NCBI GenBank assembly: GCA_947474005.1
Contig: CANJHI010000004.1
Location: forward strand, 1 to 64,000
From: Alphaproteobacteria bacterium
GTDB lineage: Bacteria; Pseudomonadota; Alphaproteobacteria; Reyranellales; Reyranellaceae
Length of the DNA stretch: 64,000 bases
Direction: 5' to 3'
Part shown: positions 17,764 through 25,495 of the stretch, piece after piece
How the letters are laid out: each line of letters begins with the position of its first letter
Numbering within the stretch: the stretch's first letter is position 1
Made by a program: the position numbers and the translations under genes
Notes under the pieces: model-generated
Told to the model about the DNA's origin: nothing
Database searches by the model: none
The model's input: the letters and a program-made list of their open reading frames with translations, nothing else

Positions 17764-19521
17764 ATGGACCCGCTTCCTTCACGCAACACCCGGCTCGCCC
17801 AGCGCCGCGCCGGTTTCGCCTCGGCGTCCGAGATGCTGGACTATGCGGCCCAGGGCCAGACCGGCATCTCTTTCTACAATGCCAAGGGCGAGCTGCTGAC
17901 GGCGCTCGCCTGGCGCGAAGTCCGGGAACGGGCCCATGTCACTGCCCGCAAGCTGATCGGGGCGGGATTTGCCGTCGGCGAGCGGCTCCTGATCACGGCC
18001 GACACTTGGCCTGGCTTCTTCGATTCATTCTTTGGTGCCCAGTATGCCGGGCTGATCCCCGTCCCGGTGTCGATCCCGGTCGGGATCGGCGGCAAGGACG
18101 CCTACCTCGACCAGCTTCGTCGGCAACTGGCCGCTTCGGGAGCAGTCGCAGCCGTCGGCATCGATGATCTTGCGGGATTCCTGGCCGCTGCCGCCGGGGA
18201 ATACCCGGCGGTTCGCCTGCACGGCGGCAAGGGCATCCTCGATGCGCTGCCCGAGAAGGCGGTCGACCTCCGGCCGCTCGGCCCCGGCGACCTCTGCTAC
18301 ATCCAGTTCTCCTCGGGCAGCACGCGCCACCCGCACGGCGTGCAGATCACCCAGCGCGCCCTGATGGCCAATCTCGCCGGCATGACCGGGCCGGCGGGCC
18401 TCGACGTGATCCCAGGCGATCGCGCCGTGAGCTGGCTGCCGCTCTATCACGACATGGGCCTGATCGGATTCCTGATGGCCCCGCTCAGCTGTCAGCTCTC
18501 GATCGACTACCTGACACCGCGCGACTTCGCGCGCCGGCCGATGCAGTGGCTCAACGTCATCTCGCGCAATCGCGGCACCATCTCCTACAGCCCGAGCTTC
18601 GGCTACGACCTGTCGACGCGGCGCGGCGTCACGCAGGTGCCGGCCGGCCTCGATCTGTCGTGCTGGCGGCGCGCCGGCATCGGCGGCGACATGATTCGTC
18701 CCGAGGTGCTCAATCGCTTCGCCGACGCCTTCGAGCCTTCGGGCTTCGATCGCAAGGCCTTCATTCCGAGCTACGGCATGGCCGAGGTGTGCCTGGCCAT
18801 CACCTTCAGTCCCAAGGGCGTGGGCGTTCGCACCGATGTCGTCGACCGCGTCGCGCTCGGCAAGGATCAGGCGGCCATCCCGGCGGCCAATCCGCAGGAC
18901 GCGCAACGGGCCCGCAGTTTCGTGCTCTGTGGTCGGGTGCTGCCCGGTCATCTTCTCGAGGTGCGCGGCCCCGACGGCAAGCTGCTGGCCGACCGCGGAG
19001 TGGGGCGCATCTTCATCAAGGGCCCGAGCGTGATGCCGGGCTATTTCGGTGAGCCGGAAGCCAGTCGGGAGGTGCTTTCGGACGACGGTTGGCTCGATAC
19101 CGGCGATCTTGGCTATTGGCTGGCGGGCGAGATCGTTGTCACGGGCCGGGCCAAGGATCTGATCATCATCAACGGCCGCAATGTCTGGCCGCAGGACATC
19201 GAGTGGGCGATCGAAGCCCGGGGCGTCGTGAAAAGCGGCGACGCCGCGGCCTTCTCCATCGATACCGGCGCAGGCGAGCGCGTGGTCGTGGCGGTGCTGG
19301 CACGCGTGTCCGGCAAAGAGGAGCGGCTGGCCCTGGCGCGCGACGTCGCAGGCGCGGTGCGCGAGGCGATCGCCGTCGATTGCGACGTCGCCCTGGTGCC
19401 GCCGACGTCGGGTCTGCCGATGACGACTTCAGGCAAGCTCAGCCGGACGCGGACGAAGGCCAACTATCTCGCCGGCCTCTACGCGGCCCCGGCCTCGCCT
19501 CCGAAGCCCGTCGCGGCCTGA
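17764..19521 (+). CDS. aasR: fatty acyl-AMP ligase (ceramide cluster acyl-activating enzyme)
   Basis: 585 residues, adenylate-forming superfamily, FAAL branch. It would activate a fatty acid as acyl-AMP and load it on the neighbouring acyl carrier protein. Key motifs are YIQFSSGSTRHPHGV (P-loop-like A3), SWLPLYHDMGLIGFL (diagnostic of FAALs), a PSYGMAEVCLAIT A5 region, and DTGDLGYWLAGEIVVTGRAKDLIIINGRN (A7/A8). The C-terminal GLPMTTSGKLSRTRTK has the catalytic Lys. I start at ATG 17764; GTG 17686 would overlap the argD promoter. The symbol follows the acyl ligase of the Caulobacter ceramide gene set. It is 10 bases before the reductase gene. Confidence 0.87.
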   Translation: MDPLPSRNTRLAQRRAGFASASEMLDYAAQGQTGISFYNAKGELLTALAWREVRERAHVTARKLIGAGFAVGERLLITADTWPGFFDSFFGAQYAGLIPVPVSIPVGIGGKDAYLDQLRRQLAASGAVAAVGIDDLAGFLAAAAGEYPAVRLHGGKGILDALPEKAVDLRPLGPGDLCYIQFSSGSTRHPHGVQITQRALMANLAGMTGPAGLDVIPGDRAVSWLPLYHDMGLIGFLMAPLSCQLSIDYLTPRDFARRPMQWLNVISRNRGTISYSPSFGYDLSTRRGVTQVPAGLDLSCWRRAGIGGDMIRPEVLNRFADAFEPSGFDRKAFIPSYGMAEVCLAITFSPKGVGVRTDVVDRVALGKDQAAIPAANPQDAQRARSFVLCGRVLPGHLLEVRGPDGKLLADRGVGRIFIKGPSVMPGYFGEPEASREVLSDDGWLDTGDLGYWLAGEIVVTGRAKDLIIINGRNVWPQDIEWAIEARGVVKSGDAAAFSIDTGAGERVVVAVLARVSGKEERLALARDVAGAVREAIAVDCDVALVPPTSGLPMTTSGKLSRTRTKANYLAGLYAAPASPPKPVAA

Positions 19522-19531
19522 GGCGATTCCG

Positions 19532-20458
19532 ATGAGTAGGCTGGTCGCGGTCACCGGCGCCACGGGGTTCGTCGGGCCGCATCTCGTTTCAGCGCTGGCC
19601 CGGCGCGGCTGGAAGCTTCGTCTGCTGGTCCGGCGCTGGTCGCCGCTGCCCTCGCTGCCCGGCGTCGACGCCGAGATCGTGCTGGGCGACCTTGCCGACG
19701 AGGGCGCGCTCCGGCGCCTGGTCGACGGGGCCGACACGGTGATCCACGCCGCCGGCCTCATAAAGGCGCGGGCGCCGGCCGACTTCATGGCGGTCAACGG
19801 CGTGGGGACGGCTCGCCTGTCGGCACTCGCGCCCCAGGCACGCTTCGTTCTGCTGTCGTCGCTCGCGGCGCGTGAACCCCAGCTTTCGGCCTACGCCGAA
19901 AGCAAGCATGAGGCCGAGCGGGTGGTGGCCGGGCGCACGGGTCCCTGGCTCGCGATTCGGGCGCCCGCGATCTATGGCCCGGGCGACCGCGAAACGCTGG
20001 CCTATTTCCGCGCCGCGGCTTGGGGCCTGGCGCCTCGGCCTCGGCTGAATAATGCCCGCCTGGCCCTGATCCACGTCGAGGATCTGGCCGAAGCCCTCGC
20101 CGCGGCCGTCGAGCGTCCGCCGTCCGACTCGGTCTACGAGATCGATGATGGCCGGCAAGGCGGGTACGGCTACGGCGATATGGAGGCGGCGGCTGCCGCT
20201 GCGCTGGAACGGGCTGTGCGGTCGCTACCGATTCCGCGCGGTATCATGAAGGTTGTCGGATGGGCCAATGGCTTGCGACAGACTCTGGGCGGGTCGCCGC
20301 AGATCCTGACGAGTTCCAAGGTGCAGGAGATGTTTCACCCTGACTGGACAGTTCATGACCACCGCCTGGCGGCAACGATCGCTTTCCGGGCCCGTTACGG
20401 CCTCCGAGCCGGATTTCGCGACACTGTATTGTGGTATCGCCGTGAGAACTGGCTCTAG
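19532..20458 (+). CDS. cerR: NAD(P)-dependent epimerase/dehydratase, ceramide reductase-like
   Basis: 308 residues, extended SDR. The Rossmann motif GATGFVG is at residues 9-15. The catalytic YxxxK is Y121-K125 (YAESKHEAE), with VLLSSLA holding the active Ser before it. In Caulobacter the CerR enzyme, an NDP-sugar-epimerase-like SDR encoded beside spt, reduces 3-oxo-ceramide (or 3-ketosphinganine). The position here, between the FAAL and ACP/SPT genes, makes that assignment likely. On sequence family alone it could be another atypical SDR. Confidence 0.82.
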   Translation: MSRLVAVTGATGFVGPHLVSALARRGWKLRLLVRRWSPLPSLPGVDAEIVLGDLADEGALRRLVDGADTVIHAAGLIKARAPADFMAVNGVGTARLSALAPQARFVLLSSLAAREPQLSAYAESKHEAERVVAGRTGPWLAIRAPAIYGPGDRETLAYFRAAAWGLAPRPRLNNARLALIHVEDLAEALAAAVERPPSDSVYEIDDGRQGGYGYGDMEAAAAAALERAVRSLPIPRGIMKVVGWANGLRQTLGGSPQILTSSKVQEMFHPDWTVHDHRLAATIAFRARYGLRAGFRDTVLWYRRENWL

Positions 20459-20463
20459 GACGT

Positions 20464-20495
20464 GTGAAACACTGCGTAACAAATTGTTATTTCAC
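20464..20495 (+). promoter_or_regulatory. AT-rich inverted repeat between cerR and acpR
   Basis: GTGAAA (20464-20469) and TTTCAC (20490-20495) flank a perfect 13-base palindrome TAACAAATTGTTA (20477-20489). It stands out as AT-rich in a GC-rich operon and lies just before the ribosome binding site AAGGA of the ACP gene. It could be an operator, a processing hairpin, or a translation-control stem that separates ACP/SPT expression from the upstream genes. Confidence 0.5.
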
Positions 20496-20504
20496 AAGGA
20501 ATCG

Positions 20505-20870
20505 GTGTTTCTGCCACAAGGTGGCATGCCTGACCCCGGGACCGGAGAGCCGCTCTTGCGCACAGCCCATCAATTGATCGTCGAAAACGACGACATCGCC
20601 AGCACCCTCGAATTGCCCCGCCTCGCGTCGCGCGTCGACGTGATCCGGGAGATTTGCCGTCATCTGGCGCCGTACCAGGCTGGCGAAAGGCCGATTGTTG
20701 GCGCGACCGTCATCGCCAAGGACCTGACCATCGATTCGCTGGCGATCATGGACATGGTCATGGAACTCGAGGACAGCTTCGACGTGTCGATCCCGATGAA
20801 CGTCGTGGCCGAGATCCATACCGTCGACCAGCTCGCCGACACGATCCTGGACCTGCGCTCCAAGCGCTAA
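20505..20870 (+). CDS. acpR: acyl carrier protein of the ceramide cluster
   Basis: About 121 residues from GTG 20505, which has AAGGA 4-5 bases before it; ATG 20526 (114 residues) is the alternative. The carrier domain is at about residues 45-120. The phosphopantetheine Ser is about residue 78 in TIDSLAIMDMVMELEDSFDVSIP. A 40-residue N-terminal extension is longer than in housekeeping AcpP. A dedicated ACP (AcpR) beside spt is part of the known Caulobacter ceramide gene set, delivering acyl groups to SPT. It is 5 bases before spt. Confidence 0.85.
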   Translation: MFLPQGGMPDPGTGEPLLRTAHQLIVENDDIASTLELPRLASRVDVIREICRHLAPYQAGERPIVGATVIAKDLTIDSLAIMDMVMELEDSFDVSIPMNVVAEIHTVDQLADTILDLRSKR

Positions 20871-20875
20871 TCAAA

Positions 20876-22105
20876 ATGGGTTTGTTCGACCGTCACGCGG
20901 GCCTGCTCGAGGCGTACCGCGACGTCCGGACCACCGGGGCCGACCCCTTCCAGATCCGCATGGAGCGGGTGCTGTCGCCGACCGAGGCGATCATCAACGG
21001 CCGCAAGATGCTGCTGGTCGGCACCAACAACTATTTCGGCCTGACGTTCGATCCTTCCTGCATGGAAGCCGCCATTGAGGCGATCCGTGCCGAAGGTACC
21101 GGCACGACCGGCTCGCGCATCGCCAACGGCAGCTACAGCGAGCACATCCTCCTCGAGGAGGAGATCGCTGAATTCTACGGCAAGAAGCACTGCATGGTCT
21201 TCACGACCGGCTACCAGGCCAATCTCGGGGTGATTTCCACCCTGGTCGGCCAGGGCGACCACTTGCTGATCGACGCCGACAGCCACGCCTCGATCTACGA
21301 TGCCTGCAAGATGACCCAGGCCGAGGTCGTGCGCTTCAGGCACAACGATCCGTCGAGCTTGGAGTCCCGGCTCCGGCGCCTGGGCGACAAGCCCGGCAAC
21401 CGGCTGGTGATCCTGGAAGGTATCTATTCGATGCTGGGGGACAGCGCCCCGCTCCGGGAATTCGTCGACGTCTGCAAGAAGTACGGCGCCTATGTGCTGG
21501 TCGACGAGGCCCATTCGCTGGGCGCGCTCGGCGAGACCGGCCGCGGCCTCTGCGAATCGACTGGCGTGCTGGACGACTGCCATTTCATCGTCGGGACCTT
21601 TTCCAAGACCCTGGGCGCCATCGGCGGCTACTGCGTCTCCAACGATCCTGATTTCGACGTCCTGCGCGTCACCGTGCGCTCCTACATGTTCACCGCTTCG
21701 CTGCCGCCGTCGATCGTGGCGTCGGTCCGCCAAGCCCTGCGGGTCGTGAAGGCCCGGCCCGAGCTGCGCAAGCAGCTGTGGGACAATGTCGCCACCCTCT
21801 ATGACGGCCTCGCTGCCCAAGGCTTCAAGCTCGGCCCCGAGCATGGCCCGGTGGTGGGCGTCCATCTGCCCGACCGCATGCTCGCCATCGGCTTCTGGCG
21901 CGCGATGCTCGATGCCGGGATCTACGTGAATGTCGCCGTGCCGCCGGCCACGCCGAATGGCGTCTCGCTCCTGCGCTGCTCGGTTTGCGCCGCCCATACG
22001 CCGGAACAGCTCCAGCACATGATCGAGGTCATGACCGGGATCGGCCGACAGCTCGGGGTCATTTCCGGGCCACCGAAGCTGCGCGTCGTCGCCGGCAACC
22101 GCTAG
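20876..22105 (+). CDS. spt: serine palmitoyltransferase
   Basis: 409 residues, alpha-oxoamine synthase family (PLP fold type I). It condenses serine with an acyl thioester to 3-ketosphinganine, the first step of sphingolipid synthesis. Family marks are GTNNYFGLTFDP, EGTGTTGSRIANGSY, DADSHASIYDAC with the stacking His137, VDEAHS with Asp210/His213, and the PLP Lys244 in GTFSKTLGAIGG. The C-terminal PPATPNG-LLRCS block with Arg367 closely follows Sphingomonas SPT. The second Arg before PPATP (Arg378 in that enzyme) is Val355 here. ATG 20876 gives normal length. The acylated ACP is probably its donor. Confidence 0.93.
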   Translation: MGLFDRHAGLLEAYRDVRTTGADPFQIRMERVLSPTEAIINGRKMLLVGTNNYFGLTFDPSCMEAAIEAIRAEGTGTTGSRIANGSYSEHILLEEEIAEFYGKKHCMVFTTGYQANLGVISTLVGQGDHLLIDADSHASIYDACKMTQAEVVRFRHNDPSSLESRLRRLGDKPGNRLVILEGIYSMLGDSAPLREFVDVCKKYGAYVLVDEAHSLGALGETGRGLCESTGVLDDCHFIVGTFSKTLGAIGGYCVSNDPDFDVLRVTVRSYMFTASLPPSIVASVRQALRVVKARPELRKQLWDNVATLYDGLAAQGFKLGPEHGPVVGVHLPDRMLAIGFWRAMLDAGIYVNVAVPPATPNGVSLLRCSVCAAHTPEQLQHMIEVMTGIGRQLGVISGPPKLRVVAGNR

Positions 22106-22174
22106 GTTCGATACTCGTCCCGCTTGACCGCCATCTCGCTTGACCCCAGGGGCCGGGCGGTGGATCACCCTTTC

Positions 22175-23095
22175 ATGTTCACGCTGGCGCATCTGTCCGA
22201 CCCGCATCTGCCGATGCCCACGGCGCGTGCCCTCGATCTCCTCGGCAAGCGTATGACGGGCTATCTCAACTGGTGGCGGCACCGCGTGCACGTGCATGCG
22301 CCGGAGGCGCTGGCCGGCATCGTGGCCGACATCAAGGCGCAGAAGCCCGATCACATCGCGCTCACCGGGGATCTGGTGAATATCTCGTTGCCGGCGGAGT
22401 TCCGCCGTGCCGCCGAGTGGCTCGCCGCCCTTGGCGGCCCAGACCTGATCACCGTCATTCCCGGCAATCACGATGTCTATGTACCGACGGACTGGCGCGA
22501 GAGCCTGGGTCTATGGGGTGCCTATCTCGCCGGAGACGGCGCGCCGGTCGCCGATGGCTTCGAGGCCTTCCCGACGGTGCGTCGGCGTGGCCCGGTGGCG
22601 CTGGTCGGCCTGTCGACCGGGGTTCCCAAGCCACCCTTGCTGGCGACTGGCACACTGGGCGAGGCGCAGATTGCCCGTGCTGAGCGGCTGCTCGCCGAGA
22701 CAGGGCGCGAGGGCCTGTGCCGCGTCGTGCTGATCCATCATCCACCACTCACCACCGAATCGCGTTTCAAGCGTCTGACCGATGCGGCCGCGTTCCAGGC
22801 GATGATCCGGCGGGTCGGCTGCGAGCTCGTTCTGCACGGGCACAATCACCGCAGCGAGGTGGCGCGCATCGCCGGTCCGCAAGGCGACATCCCCGTCATC
22901 GGCGTCACGTCGGCGTCAGCTGCACCGGGTAGCAAGTACGGGCGTGCCCGGTATCACCTGATCGGCATCGAGCGCGAGGGCGCCGGCTGGCGCATCGCCG
23001 TCGATATCCGCGCACTGAGCGCCGATGGCGAAGGGTGCGAGCCCGATGGGCGCATCGTGTTTCAAAGCGGCGGAACGGTCGCCAAGGCAGCTTGA
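22175..23095 (+). CDS. calcineurin-like metallophosphoesterase in the ceramide cluster
   Basis: 306 residues from ATG 22175, where MFTLAHLSDPHL opens the fold; GTG 22160 and TTG 22124 are in-frame alternatives. All metal and phosphate ligands are present: SDPHL (D9, H11), TGDLVN, IPGNHDVY, LIHHPPL and LHGHNHRSE. No signal peptide or membrane segment is seen, so it is cytosolic, possibly membrane-peripheral like LpxH. It lies between spt and the ceramide synthase-like gene, suggesting a phosphosphingolipid, phosphorylated precursor or headgroup donor as substrate. That is inference; no substrate motif is readable. Confidence 0.85.
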   Translation: MFTLAHLSDPHLPMPTARALDLLGKRMTGYLNWWRHRVHVHAPEALAGIVADIKAQKPDHIALTGDLVNISLPAEFRRAAEWLAALGGPDLITVIPGNHDVYVPTDWRESLGLWGAYLAGDGAPVADGFEAFPTVRRRGPVALVGLSTGVPKPPLLATGTLGEAQIARAERLLAETGREGLCRVVLIHHPPLTTESRFKRLTDAAAFQAMIRRVGCELVLHGHNHRSEVARIAGPQGDIPVIGVTSASAAPGSKYGRARYHLIGIEREGAGWRIAVDIRALSADGEGCEPDGRIVFQSGGTVAKAA

Positions 23096-23102
23096 GGCGG
23101 AA

Positions 23103-24251
23103 ATGGCATCGTCCGACATCGTGGTCACGCCGGTCAGCGGAAAGTCCGACCTCAAGGAATTCATCGGCCTGCCCAAGCGGCTCTACGTTGGCCACAAGGG
23201 CTGGGTGGCGCCGCTCAACGTCGAACGACAAGAGGCCTTCTCGCCCAAGAAGAATCCGCTGTTTGAGCACGCCGAGGTTCAGTTCTTTGTCGCGCGACGG
23301 GCCGGGCGGGTCGTCGGTCGCATCTCTGCCCAGGTCGATCGCGCCCATCTTGAACATTACAACGACAGCACTGGTCAGTTCGGTTGCCTGGTGGCCGAGG
23401 ACGATCCCGCCATTTTCGCCGCGCTGTTTGCCGCCGCCGAGGCCTGGCTGAAGGCCAAGGGCATGGTGCGCGTGACCGGTCCGTTCAGCCTTTCGATCAA
23501 CGAGGAGGTGGGCCTTCTGGTCGACGGCTTCGACAGCCGTCCGGTGCTGATGGTGCCCTACGATCCGCCCTACGCCGGGGCGCGGGTCGAGGCCTGCGGC
23601 TATGTGAAAGCGAAGGACCTCTTTTCCTACGACTACGACGTCCAGAATGCGCCGGAGACGATCGGCCGCAAGCTGCTCGACCGCGCCGGCCTTGCCGGGC
23701 GGGTCAAGGTCCGAACCGCCAACATGAAGACGTTCGACGCCGAGGTCCGCACCCTGGTCGGCATCTTCAACGACGCCTGGAGCGACAACTGGGGCTACGT
23801 GCCCTTCACCCAGGCCGAGATCGACCATGCCTCCAAGGCGTTGCGCCCGGTGATCGTGCCGGAACTCGCCGTGTTCGTGGATGTCGACGACGAGACGGTT
23901 GCCTTCATCCTGGCTCTCACCAACCTCAGCGAGGCGACGGTCGATTTCAACGGCGCGCTCAATCCCTGGAACCTGGCAAAGCTGCTGTTCAGGCTCAAGA
24001 TCACCGACGTCCACAGCACGCGGGTGCCGCTGATGGGCGTGAAGAAGAAGTTCCGCAATCACCCGCTGATGGGCGCCGGGCTTGCCATGATCGCCATCGA
24101 CCACCTGCGTGCCAACGGCAAGCGGCTGGGCAAGACCTCGGCCGAACTCGGCTGGATCCTCGAAGACAACAAGGCGACCAACAACATCATCCGCTCGGTC
24201 GGCGGCGTTCATTACAAGACCCACCGGATCTACGAGAAGGCGCTGGGGTGA
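23103..24251 (+). CDS. bcerS: GNAT-like N-acyltransferase, bacterial ceramide synthase (bCerS)-like
   Basis: 382 residues. The C-terminal part resembles a GNAT acyltransferase: ELAVFVDVDDETVAFILAL strands, LMGVKKKFRN, GLAMIAIDHLRANGKRLG, and WILEDNKATNNIIRSVGG with the typical N-x-x-x-N helix before HYKTHRIYEK. This is the kind of protein identified in Caulobacter as the bacterial ceramide synthase, which N-acylates the sphingoid base. Start ATG 23103 has GAGG just upstream, 8 bases after the phosphoesterase stop. Its stop overlaps the MFS start (GTGA). The family alone gives only N-acyltransferase; the ceramide role rests on cluster context. Confidence 0.8.
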   Translation: MASSDIVVTPVSGKSDLKEFIGLPKRLYVGHKGWVAPLNVERQEAFSPKKNPLFEHAEVQFFVARRAGRVVGRISAQVDRAHLEHYNDSTGQFGCLVAEDDPAIFAALFAAAEAWLKAKGMVRVTGPFSLSINEEVGLLVDGFDSRPVLMVPYDPPYAGARVEACGYVKAKDLFSYDYDVQNAPETIGRKLLDRAGLAGRVKVRTANMKTFDAEVRTLVGIFNDAWSDNWGYVPFTQAEIDHASKALRPVIVPELAVFVDVDDETVAFILALTNLSEATVDFNGALNPWNLAKLLFRLKITDVHSTRVPLMGVKKKFRNHPLMGAGLAMIAIDHLRANGKRLGKTSAELGWILEDNKATNNIIRSVGGVHYKTHRIYEKALG

Positions 24252-25495
24252 GCGCACCGCCGCCCGGCGCCGCCCGCCCGGCGTCGGCCTTCGCACCCTT
24301 CGGCAACCGTGCCTTTCGGCTGCTGTGGACCGCCAACGTGCTGTCCAACACCGGCGGCTGGATGGCAACCACGGGGGCGGCGTGGGAGATGACCAGCCTG
24401 ACGCAGGAGCCGATCTTCGTGGCGCTGCTGTCGGCGGCGGGCACCTTGCCGATGTTCTTGTTCTGCTTCTTTGCCGGTGTCCTGGCCGATCGGTTCGATC
24501 GCCGACGGTACATCATCGTCTGCCAGGTCTGGATGATGGGGGTGGCAGCCGCCTTGGCGGTGCTGGCATTCTTTGGCCAGCTCGATCACTGGAGCCTGCT
24601 CGGTCTAAGCTTCTGCATGGGTCTGGGCAACGCCATGAACGCGCCGGCCTGGCACGCCGTCGTGCCCGAGATCGTCTCCGGGCCGCACCTCCGCCCTGCC
24701 ATCGCGCTCAACAGCGCGGGCTTCAACCTCGCCCGCACGGTGGGTCCGGTGGTCGGCCAGATCCTTCTCAGCCTGGTCGGCGTCTTCATGCTCTTCGCCA
24801 TCAATGCCTGCACCTACATCGGCGTCATCTTCGCCATGCTGCGCTGGCGCAGACCGGCTGAGGCGAAAGCCGCCCAACGCCGCGAGGGCCTGGTCGAGGC
24901 GGCACGGACCGGCATTGCCTTCGTGCGCGGCTCTGGCGAACTCAAGGCGATCTTCGCCCGTGGCCTCTGCTTCTTCGTGCCCGGCATCGCCGTCGGCACT
25001 CTTCTGCCGGTGATCGGCCGTTTCGAACTCGGTCTCGACGAGTTCGCCTTTGGCATCCTCTACGCCGTGTTCGGCGCCGGCGCGGTGGCGGGCGCTGTCG
25101 TCATGCCGACCTTCAACCGCCTGCTCGGGCCCGACCGCGCCAACATCTGGGCGATGGGCATCCATACGGCGGCCACGCTGGTGATCGCCCTGGTCATGAC
25201 GCCTCTCGTGGTCGGCGGCTGCATTGCCCTCTCCGGCGCCTGCTGGATCACGGTGATTGCCAACAACGGCACCTCCGTTCAGGCGATCCTCCCCAATTTC
25301 ATGCGGGCGCGCGGCATGGCGGTACACCAGATGGTGTTTTTCGGCGCCATGGTCGTGGGCTCCCTCCTGTGGGGCAAGATCGCCACCCTGTTCGGTACCC
25401 AGGCGTCGCTCATTGCTTCGGCGATCGCCTTGGTGCCGTTCACGATGCTGGCGGCCTCGATCCGGTTGCCGGGCTCGTCTCTGCCGCGGCCCTGA
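24248..25495 (+). CDS. MFS transporter, EntS/DHA3-like
   Basis: 415 residues from GTG 24248, which overlaps the acyltransferase stop by 4 bases. Ten to twelve membrane segments are visible. The MFS loop 2-3 motif appears as GVLADRFDRRRY near residue 83. FGNRAFRLLWTANVLSNTGGWM at the start and PTFNRLLGPDRAN mid-protein fit the enterobactin-exporter (EntS)-like DHA3 group. Translational coupling to the ceramide synthase-like gene suggests a lipid, lipid-precursor or lysophospholipid transport or flipping role. That is inference; many EntS-like proteins export small molecules. Confidence 0.85.
   Translation: MSAPPPGAARPASAFAPFGNRAFRLLWTANVLSNTGGWMATTGAAWEMTSLTQEPIFVALLSAAGTLPMFLFCFFAGVLADRFDRRRYIIVCQVWMMGVAAALAVLAFFGQLDHWSLLGLSFCMGLGNAMNAPAWHAVVPEIVSGPHLRPAIALNSAGFNLARTVGPVVGQILLSLVGVFMLFAINACTYIGVIFAMLRWRRPAEAKAAQRREGLVEAARTGIAFVRGSGELKAIFARGLCFFVPGIAVGTLLPVIGRFELGLDEFAFGILYAVFGAGAVAGAVVMPTFNRLLGPDRANIWAMGIHTAATLVIALVMTPLVVGGCIALSGACWITVIANNGTSVQAILPNFMRARGMAVHQMVFFGAMVVGSLLWGKIATLFGTQASLIASAIALVPFTMLAASIRLPGSSLPRP

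Follow-up and report, generated by a model that had tools for sequence, protein, structure and literature searches.

The window (the whole stretch of 64,000 nucleotides analysed here, from a draft Reyranellaceae genome of 316 contigs) carries a seven-gene operon that we read, with a confidence of about 0.8, as a ceramide operon trimmed by deletion, in which a phosphoesterase most likely acts on an intermediate not made by the CpgABCD route and an MFS protein most likely moves ceramide or its product. Two points are new: a trimmed operon from which the phosphoesterase has not been lost, and an MFS partner found across the order. The five-gene ceramide pathway and the phosphoesterase belong to kinds already known. 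Because the phosphoesterase is kept without headgroup genes and the MFS gene is conserved beside the ceramide genes, this one small Reyranella operon bears on both the ceramide flippase and the function of Caulobacter CC_1158, and both questions can be tested in it.

All seven reading frames are open on the + strand, span 17764-25495 (Table 1) and are separated, in gene order, by gaps of 10, 67, 5, 69 and 7 bases, with the acyltransferase and MFS genes sharing a 4-base overlap (GTGA). An earlier note, made from the letters of the DNA, had described seven compact same-strand genes in this order, and the open frames, the gaps of no more than 69 bases and the overlap confirmed that description.

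Table 1. Genes of the operon, with positions in the window and the basis of each assignment
Gene product	Position	Strand	Basis
FAAL, AasR-type fatty acyl-AMP ligase	17764..19521	+	NF006624 745 bits (cut-off 600); PF00501
SDR/epimerase-type oxidoreductase, CerR position	19532..20458	+	PF01370 (Epimerase-type)
Dedicated ACP, AcpR position	20526..20870	+	PF00550 (PP-binding) above cut-off; DSL motif
Spt, serine palmitoyltransferase	20876..22105	+	NF047599 656 bits (cut-off 500); PDB SPT 2x8u E 3e-134
Metallophosphoesterase, positional counterpart of Caulobacter CC_1158	22175..23095	+	Metallophos PF00149
bCerS-type N-acyltransferase	23103..24251	+	Tandem GNAT fold (model); co-occurrence with SPT
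MFS_3 transporter, candidate sphingolipid flippase/exporter	24248..25495	+	PF05977 369 bits

The SPT scored above its curated family cut-off (NF047599), and a CerR-type SDR, a dedicated ACP and an acyl-AMP ligase all lie within the SPT locus, as in the Caulobacter-type ceramide gene set. FAAL is the first gene of SPT loci across Alphaproteobacteria, and the operon SDR is 46% identical to the SDR adjoining SPT in Phenylobacterium sp. J426, a Caulobacter relative that stood in for Caulobacter crescentus in our sequence comparisons. The acyltransferase found no family match in Pfam or NCBIfam scans and no match as a sequence query against PDB. Its predicted model (pLDDT 92) shows a tandem GNAT fold with matches to GNAT structures at Z up to 24.6, and the gene holds the cerS position of Caulobacter-type loci, with 47% identity to the J426 protein at that position. 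Among 387 evenly drawn Alphaproteobacteria of at least 90% completeness, 56 of them with SPT, the family was present in 58 genomes, including all 56 with SPT; only two bCerS genomes had no SPT call, and in one of them (G354) the locus contains a divergent SPT. The acyltransferase belongs to the bCerS family, and the complete five-gene ceramide pathway put forward in the earlier note is supported by the family matches together with the co-occurrence, GNAT fold and cerS position of this protein.

In Caulobacter, SPT forms 3-ketosphinganine from acyl-ACP or acyl-CoA and serine (PMC11087976, PMC11324152), while bCerS N-acylates and CerR reduces, the order of these two steps being debated (PMC11087976, PMC11324152). 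From family membership and the published Caulobacter genetics it follows that, in Reyranella, the acyl-AMP ligase would activate a fatty acid and load the dedicated ACP, SPT would join the acyl group and L-serine into 3-ketosphinganine, an acyl chain would be attached in amide linkage by the tandem-GNAT bCerS, and the SDR (CerR) would reduce the ketone to yield (dihydro)ceramide. That the five genes stand together, which had also been pointed out, is true here but not new, as contiguous ceramide/CPG2 loci have been published for Azotobacter vinelandii and Pseudomonas luteola (PMC11324152). Like these species, Reyranella has its ceramide genes all in one region; unlike Reyranella, they possess headgroup and Lpt-like genes and are reported to be missing a CC_1158 orthologue (PMC11324152), so that the two arrangements are the reverse of each other. 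A bCerS-type protein of Roseomonas marmotae (L211 20614-21765) carries the annotation dATP pyrophosphohydrolase, which seems to be an error. On an E. coli plasmid record (L212 7576-8718, 9122-15355), acyl-AMP ligase, SDR, ACP, SPT and LptF/LptG-like genes adjoin YghO, which is 45% identical to a bCerS-type acyltransferase of the window-operon family.

SPT was found in 75 of the 76 genomes of the order. All seven genes were collinear in 25 of 40 fetched SPT loci of the order and the arrangement is therefore not due to chance; contig ends, insertions, a second SPT copy or membership in genera with a longer locus account for the other 15. The collinear loci usually have argF/argD upstream and ornithine decarboxylase/homospermidine synthase downstream, and an almost identical locus is present in Reyranella soli, R. 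aquatilis, Enhydrobacter aerosaccus and many Reyranella MAGs, matches from which the window genome is taken to belong to Reyranella. Conservation of the phosphoesterase and MFS genes beside spt in relatives, a point that the earlier note had left for examination, was thus borne out by these 25 loci. We found no paper with a title or abstract on Reyranella sphingolipids.

Relatives hold the same genes in the same order within a larger phosphosphingolipid locus, indicating that the window operon is a trimmed known system. Extra genes lie between those of the operon in sister genera g3 and g5, and to some extent in outgroup family g6. The whole series in a sister-genus genome (G072, L042 and L169) reads FAAL, SDR, ACP, SPT, a nucleotidyltransferase-like gene (NTase), a CDP-alcohol transferase (CDPAT_a), the phosphoesterase, LptF2, LptG2, a second CDP-alcohol transferase (CDPAT_b), a fatty acid hydroxylase-like gene (FAH), CERS, a CofC-like gene, CpgD and MFS, with NTase and CDPAT_a on the opposite strand. 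Removing from this series the genes that lie in between gives exactly the window operon, its order unchanged. The larger layout minus the MFS gene also occurs across Alphaproteobacteria and in Phenylobacterium sp. J426, whose locus matches the published description of CC_1165 to CC_1152 gene by gene.

In Caulobacter crescentus, CC_1168-CC_1152 forms a locus for ceramide and ceramide-diphosphoglycerate (CPG2) (PMC11324152, PMC10331486, PMC12275187). By contrast, a joined protein query (E 1e-12) detected NTase, CDPAT_a and CofC in 0 of 65 genomes of Reyranella, while queries with the same proteins do match sister-genus genomes (G072, G005 and G001). The proteins that mark the CPG/CPG2 pathway (CC_1161 nucleotidyltransferase, CC_1159 CDP-alcohol transferase and CC_1153 CofC-like protein) are thus without counterparts in Reyranella. 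In the Reyranella genomes checked, LptF2 gave no match either, so that the LptF2/LptG2 pair dedicated to the larger locus was not found, and clear orthologues were found neither for the CpgB-like ceramide kinase (CC_1160; weak or partial matches at most) nor for CpgD (CC_1152; merely weak partial matches). The window genome has two DAGK_cat genes, one matching CpgB at 37% over 109 residues only and the other not at all; in a complete genome (G053), DAGK_cat kinases are absent and there are just two CDP-alcohol transferases, which would be the housekeeping PgsA and PssA. The Reyranella operon further differs from the Caulobacter locus in its added MFS_3 gene and in an acyltransferase directly 3' of the phosphoesterase. 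In a tree of 103 phosphoesterases (quick method), the Reyranella proteins and those of the headgroup-bearing sister genera fell in one clade (SH-aLRT 99). Gene order and this tree suggest that the Reyranella operon most likely arose by deletion rather than by separate assembly.

The phosphoesterase was retained in 62 of the 65 genomes of the genus, and in 44 of 44 good-quality ones. In sister genera and in J426 it is flanked by the CC_1159-type gene on one side and the lptF2 operon on the other and, compared through J426, appears to correspond to CC_1158 by both gene order and domain. The suggestion that it is a new member of the pathway fails on this correspondence, and the idea of a wholly new member was rejected on its apparent CC_1158 position: CC_1158 has a phosphoesterase domain and a published mutant phenotype of an intermediate kind, its deletion slightly lowering CPG2 and raising CPG (PMC11324152). 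CC_1157, called probably unrelated in the literature, was rejected as the counterpart, the J426 gene after the phosphoesterase encoding a HIT-family protein that is a better fit to CC_1157. In many phosphosphingolipid loci, the phosphoesterase is separated from LptF2 by a HIT-family gene whose position fits CC_1157 (L150 10178-10624, L211 17800-18243, L283 10975-11346). The dinuclear-metal motif residues of the phosphoesterase are conserved (alignments A1, A3 and A5), and no signal peptide is apparent because the protein begins directly at its first strand. It is most likely a cytoplasmic dinuclear-metal phosphohydrolase that corresponds to CC_1158 and stems from the larger locus.

Each of the six genera tested in the order has an MFS orthologue close to ceramide genes, and the further neighbours differ. 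The proposal that the MFS protein belongs to the pathway is credible in a narrower form, as a lineage-specific member, because of this conservation beside ceramide genes across the whole order; the gene is, however, not part of Caulobacter-type loci. Among four other genomes tested with such loci, only Roseomonas mucosa gave a match (40%), and it is unlinked, the flanks being free of ceramide genes for about 7 kb in one direction and 11 kb in the other. A simple replacement of LptF2/LptG2 by the MFS protein is not supported, since sister genera g3 and g5 carry the MFS gene as well as LptF2/LptG2, and as a PDB sequence query the protein had no match. Its MFS_3 family and gene order make it a candidate sphingolipid flippase or exporter that would most likely carry ceramide, or a product made from it, to the other side of the inner membrane.

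Three other accounts of these two proteins were weighed. The earlier note had the phosphoesterase dephosphorylate a ceramide intermediate or headgroup and the MFS protein export the finished phosphosphingolipid. The neighbourhood in sister genera and Caulobacteraceae, where genes for a CDP-alcohol transferase, a nucleotidyltransferase and often also a ceramide kinase adjoin the phosphoesterase, speaks for such a role, as does the shift from CPG2 to CPG upon CC_1158 deletion. The product of a CDP-alcohol transferase of the phosphatidylinositol-phosphate synthase type carries a terminal phosphate that a phosphatase has to remove, as is established for PIP and PGP synthesis, and weak matches to this family were seen. 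However, the transferase, nucleotidyltransferase and CofC genes are gone from every one of the 65 Reyranella genomes, and complete genome G053 offers no DAGK_cat kinase and no transferase beyond its two. A role on phosphorylated ceramide or its headgroup is weakened by these absences, as well as by the want of clear ceramide-kinase, CpgD and LptF2 orthologues in the Reyranella genomes checked, and we regard this account as doubtful. Because the headgroup genes are gone from 65/65 genomes and the phosphoesterase is kept in 62/65, the phosphoesterase probably has a use independent of the known headgroup pathway. A phosphorylated or nucleotide-linked lipid intermediate from outside the CpgABCD route would then be its most likely substrate, since the enzyme is kept where the known headgroup genes are gone.

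Alternatively, both genes could be passengers kept by linkage, with general roles outside sphingolipids (a nucleotide or phospholipid phosphodiesterase and a drug exporter). The phosphoesterase need not be a sphingolipid enzyme, because it occurs alone in many Hyphomicrobiales such as Roseibium, Stappia and Afipia, with no ceramide genes nearby and often beside NUDIX and other unrelated genes, and because 23 of the 56 SPT genomes lack it. General phosphodiesterases share its fold, the MFS_3 family is broad, and 34 of 152 gathered phosphoesterase loci, many from named Hyphomicrobiales, have no ceramide genes nearby. The genome-wide co-occurrence with spt, which had been named as a check, holds in 33 of the 56 SPT genomes but not in the rest. 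Viewed from the other side, 33 of the 39 phosphoesterase genomes among the 387 carry SPT and 6 lack an SPT call, against 56 of 387 overall (hypergeometric 1e-26, ignoring relatedness). The passenger account also has to accommodate a phosphoesterase whose place in line between SPT and the acyltransferase has outlasted large deletions, an MFS gene that stays beside ceramide genes whatever its other neighbours, and the phenotype of the CC_1158 mutant, and it appears unlikely. A third possibility is that the phosphoesterase works in catabolism or recycling, as a phosphodiesterase of the GpdQ or acid-sphingomyelinase fold group, releasing ceramide or clearing nucleotide-linked lipids. The predicted phosphoesterase model (pLDDT 94) has GpdQ (Z 25.7, rmsd 2.6, 240 aligned), Rv0805 (Z 24.6, rmsd 2.9, 239 aligned) and Lmo2642 (Z 26.8, rmsd 3.1, 270 aligned) as its nearest folds, and matches SMPDL3A (Z 22.4, rmsd 3.5, 272 aligned) and acid sphingomyelinase (Z about 20). 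Fold likeness gives no substrate, however, and purple acid phosphatases reach scores similar to that of SMPDL3A. The enzyme resembles GpdQ and Rv0805 in fold and metal-binding motifs but differs from them in its lipid-synthesis genomic context and at about 20% identity. With no apparent signal peptide, a catabolic role seems the least probable of the three. The solitary Hyphomicrobiales phosphoesterases form nearly one group in the tree. Several of them (L238, L248, L262, L259 and similar) adjoin a divergent NUDIX gene, the fetched flanks being without ceramide genes.

Returning to the trimmed operon with its presumed phosphoesterase substrate and MFS partner, we propose only tentatively, and with the odds against both parts holding together, that Reyranellales have a dedicated MFS ceramide flippase and that the CC_1158-type phosphoesterase serves a headgroup-independent step in ceramide synthesis or turnover. 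If true, the Reyranellales MFS protein would supply the inner-membrane transport step (flippase) for ceramide that has been reported as unidentified in Caulobacter (PMC11087976), and the role of CC_1158-type phosphoesterases would not be bound to the phosphoglycerate headgroup pathway assigned to them.

Variants of the locus were also seen within Reyranella. In some genomes (L068 2819-7905, L074 and L064), several kb of transporter-like genes are inserted between SPT and the phosphoesterase, which is found further on. One complete genome (G050, L047 7984-9457) carries a further SPT copy (81% identity) that has an ACP of its own and an adjoining MATE-like transporter gene, and this second copy stands apart from the other ceramide genes.
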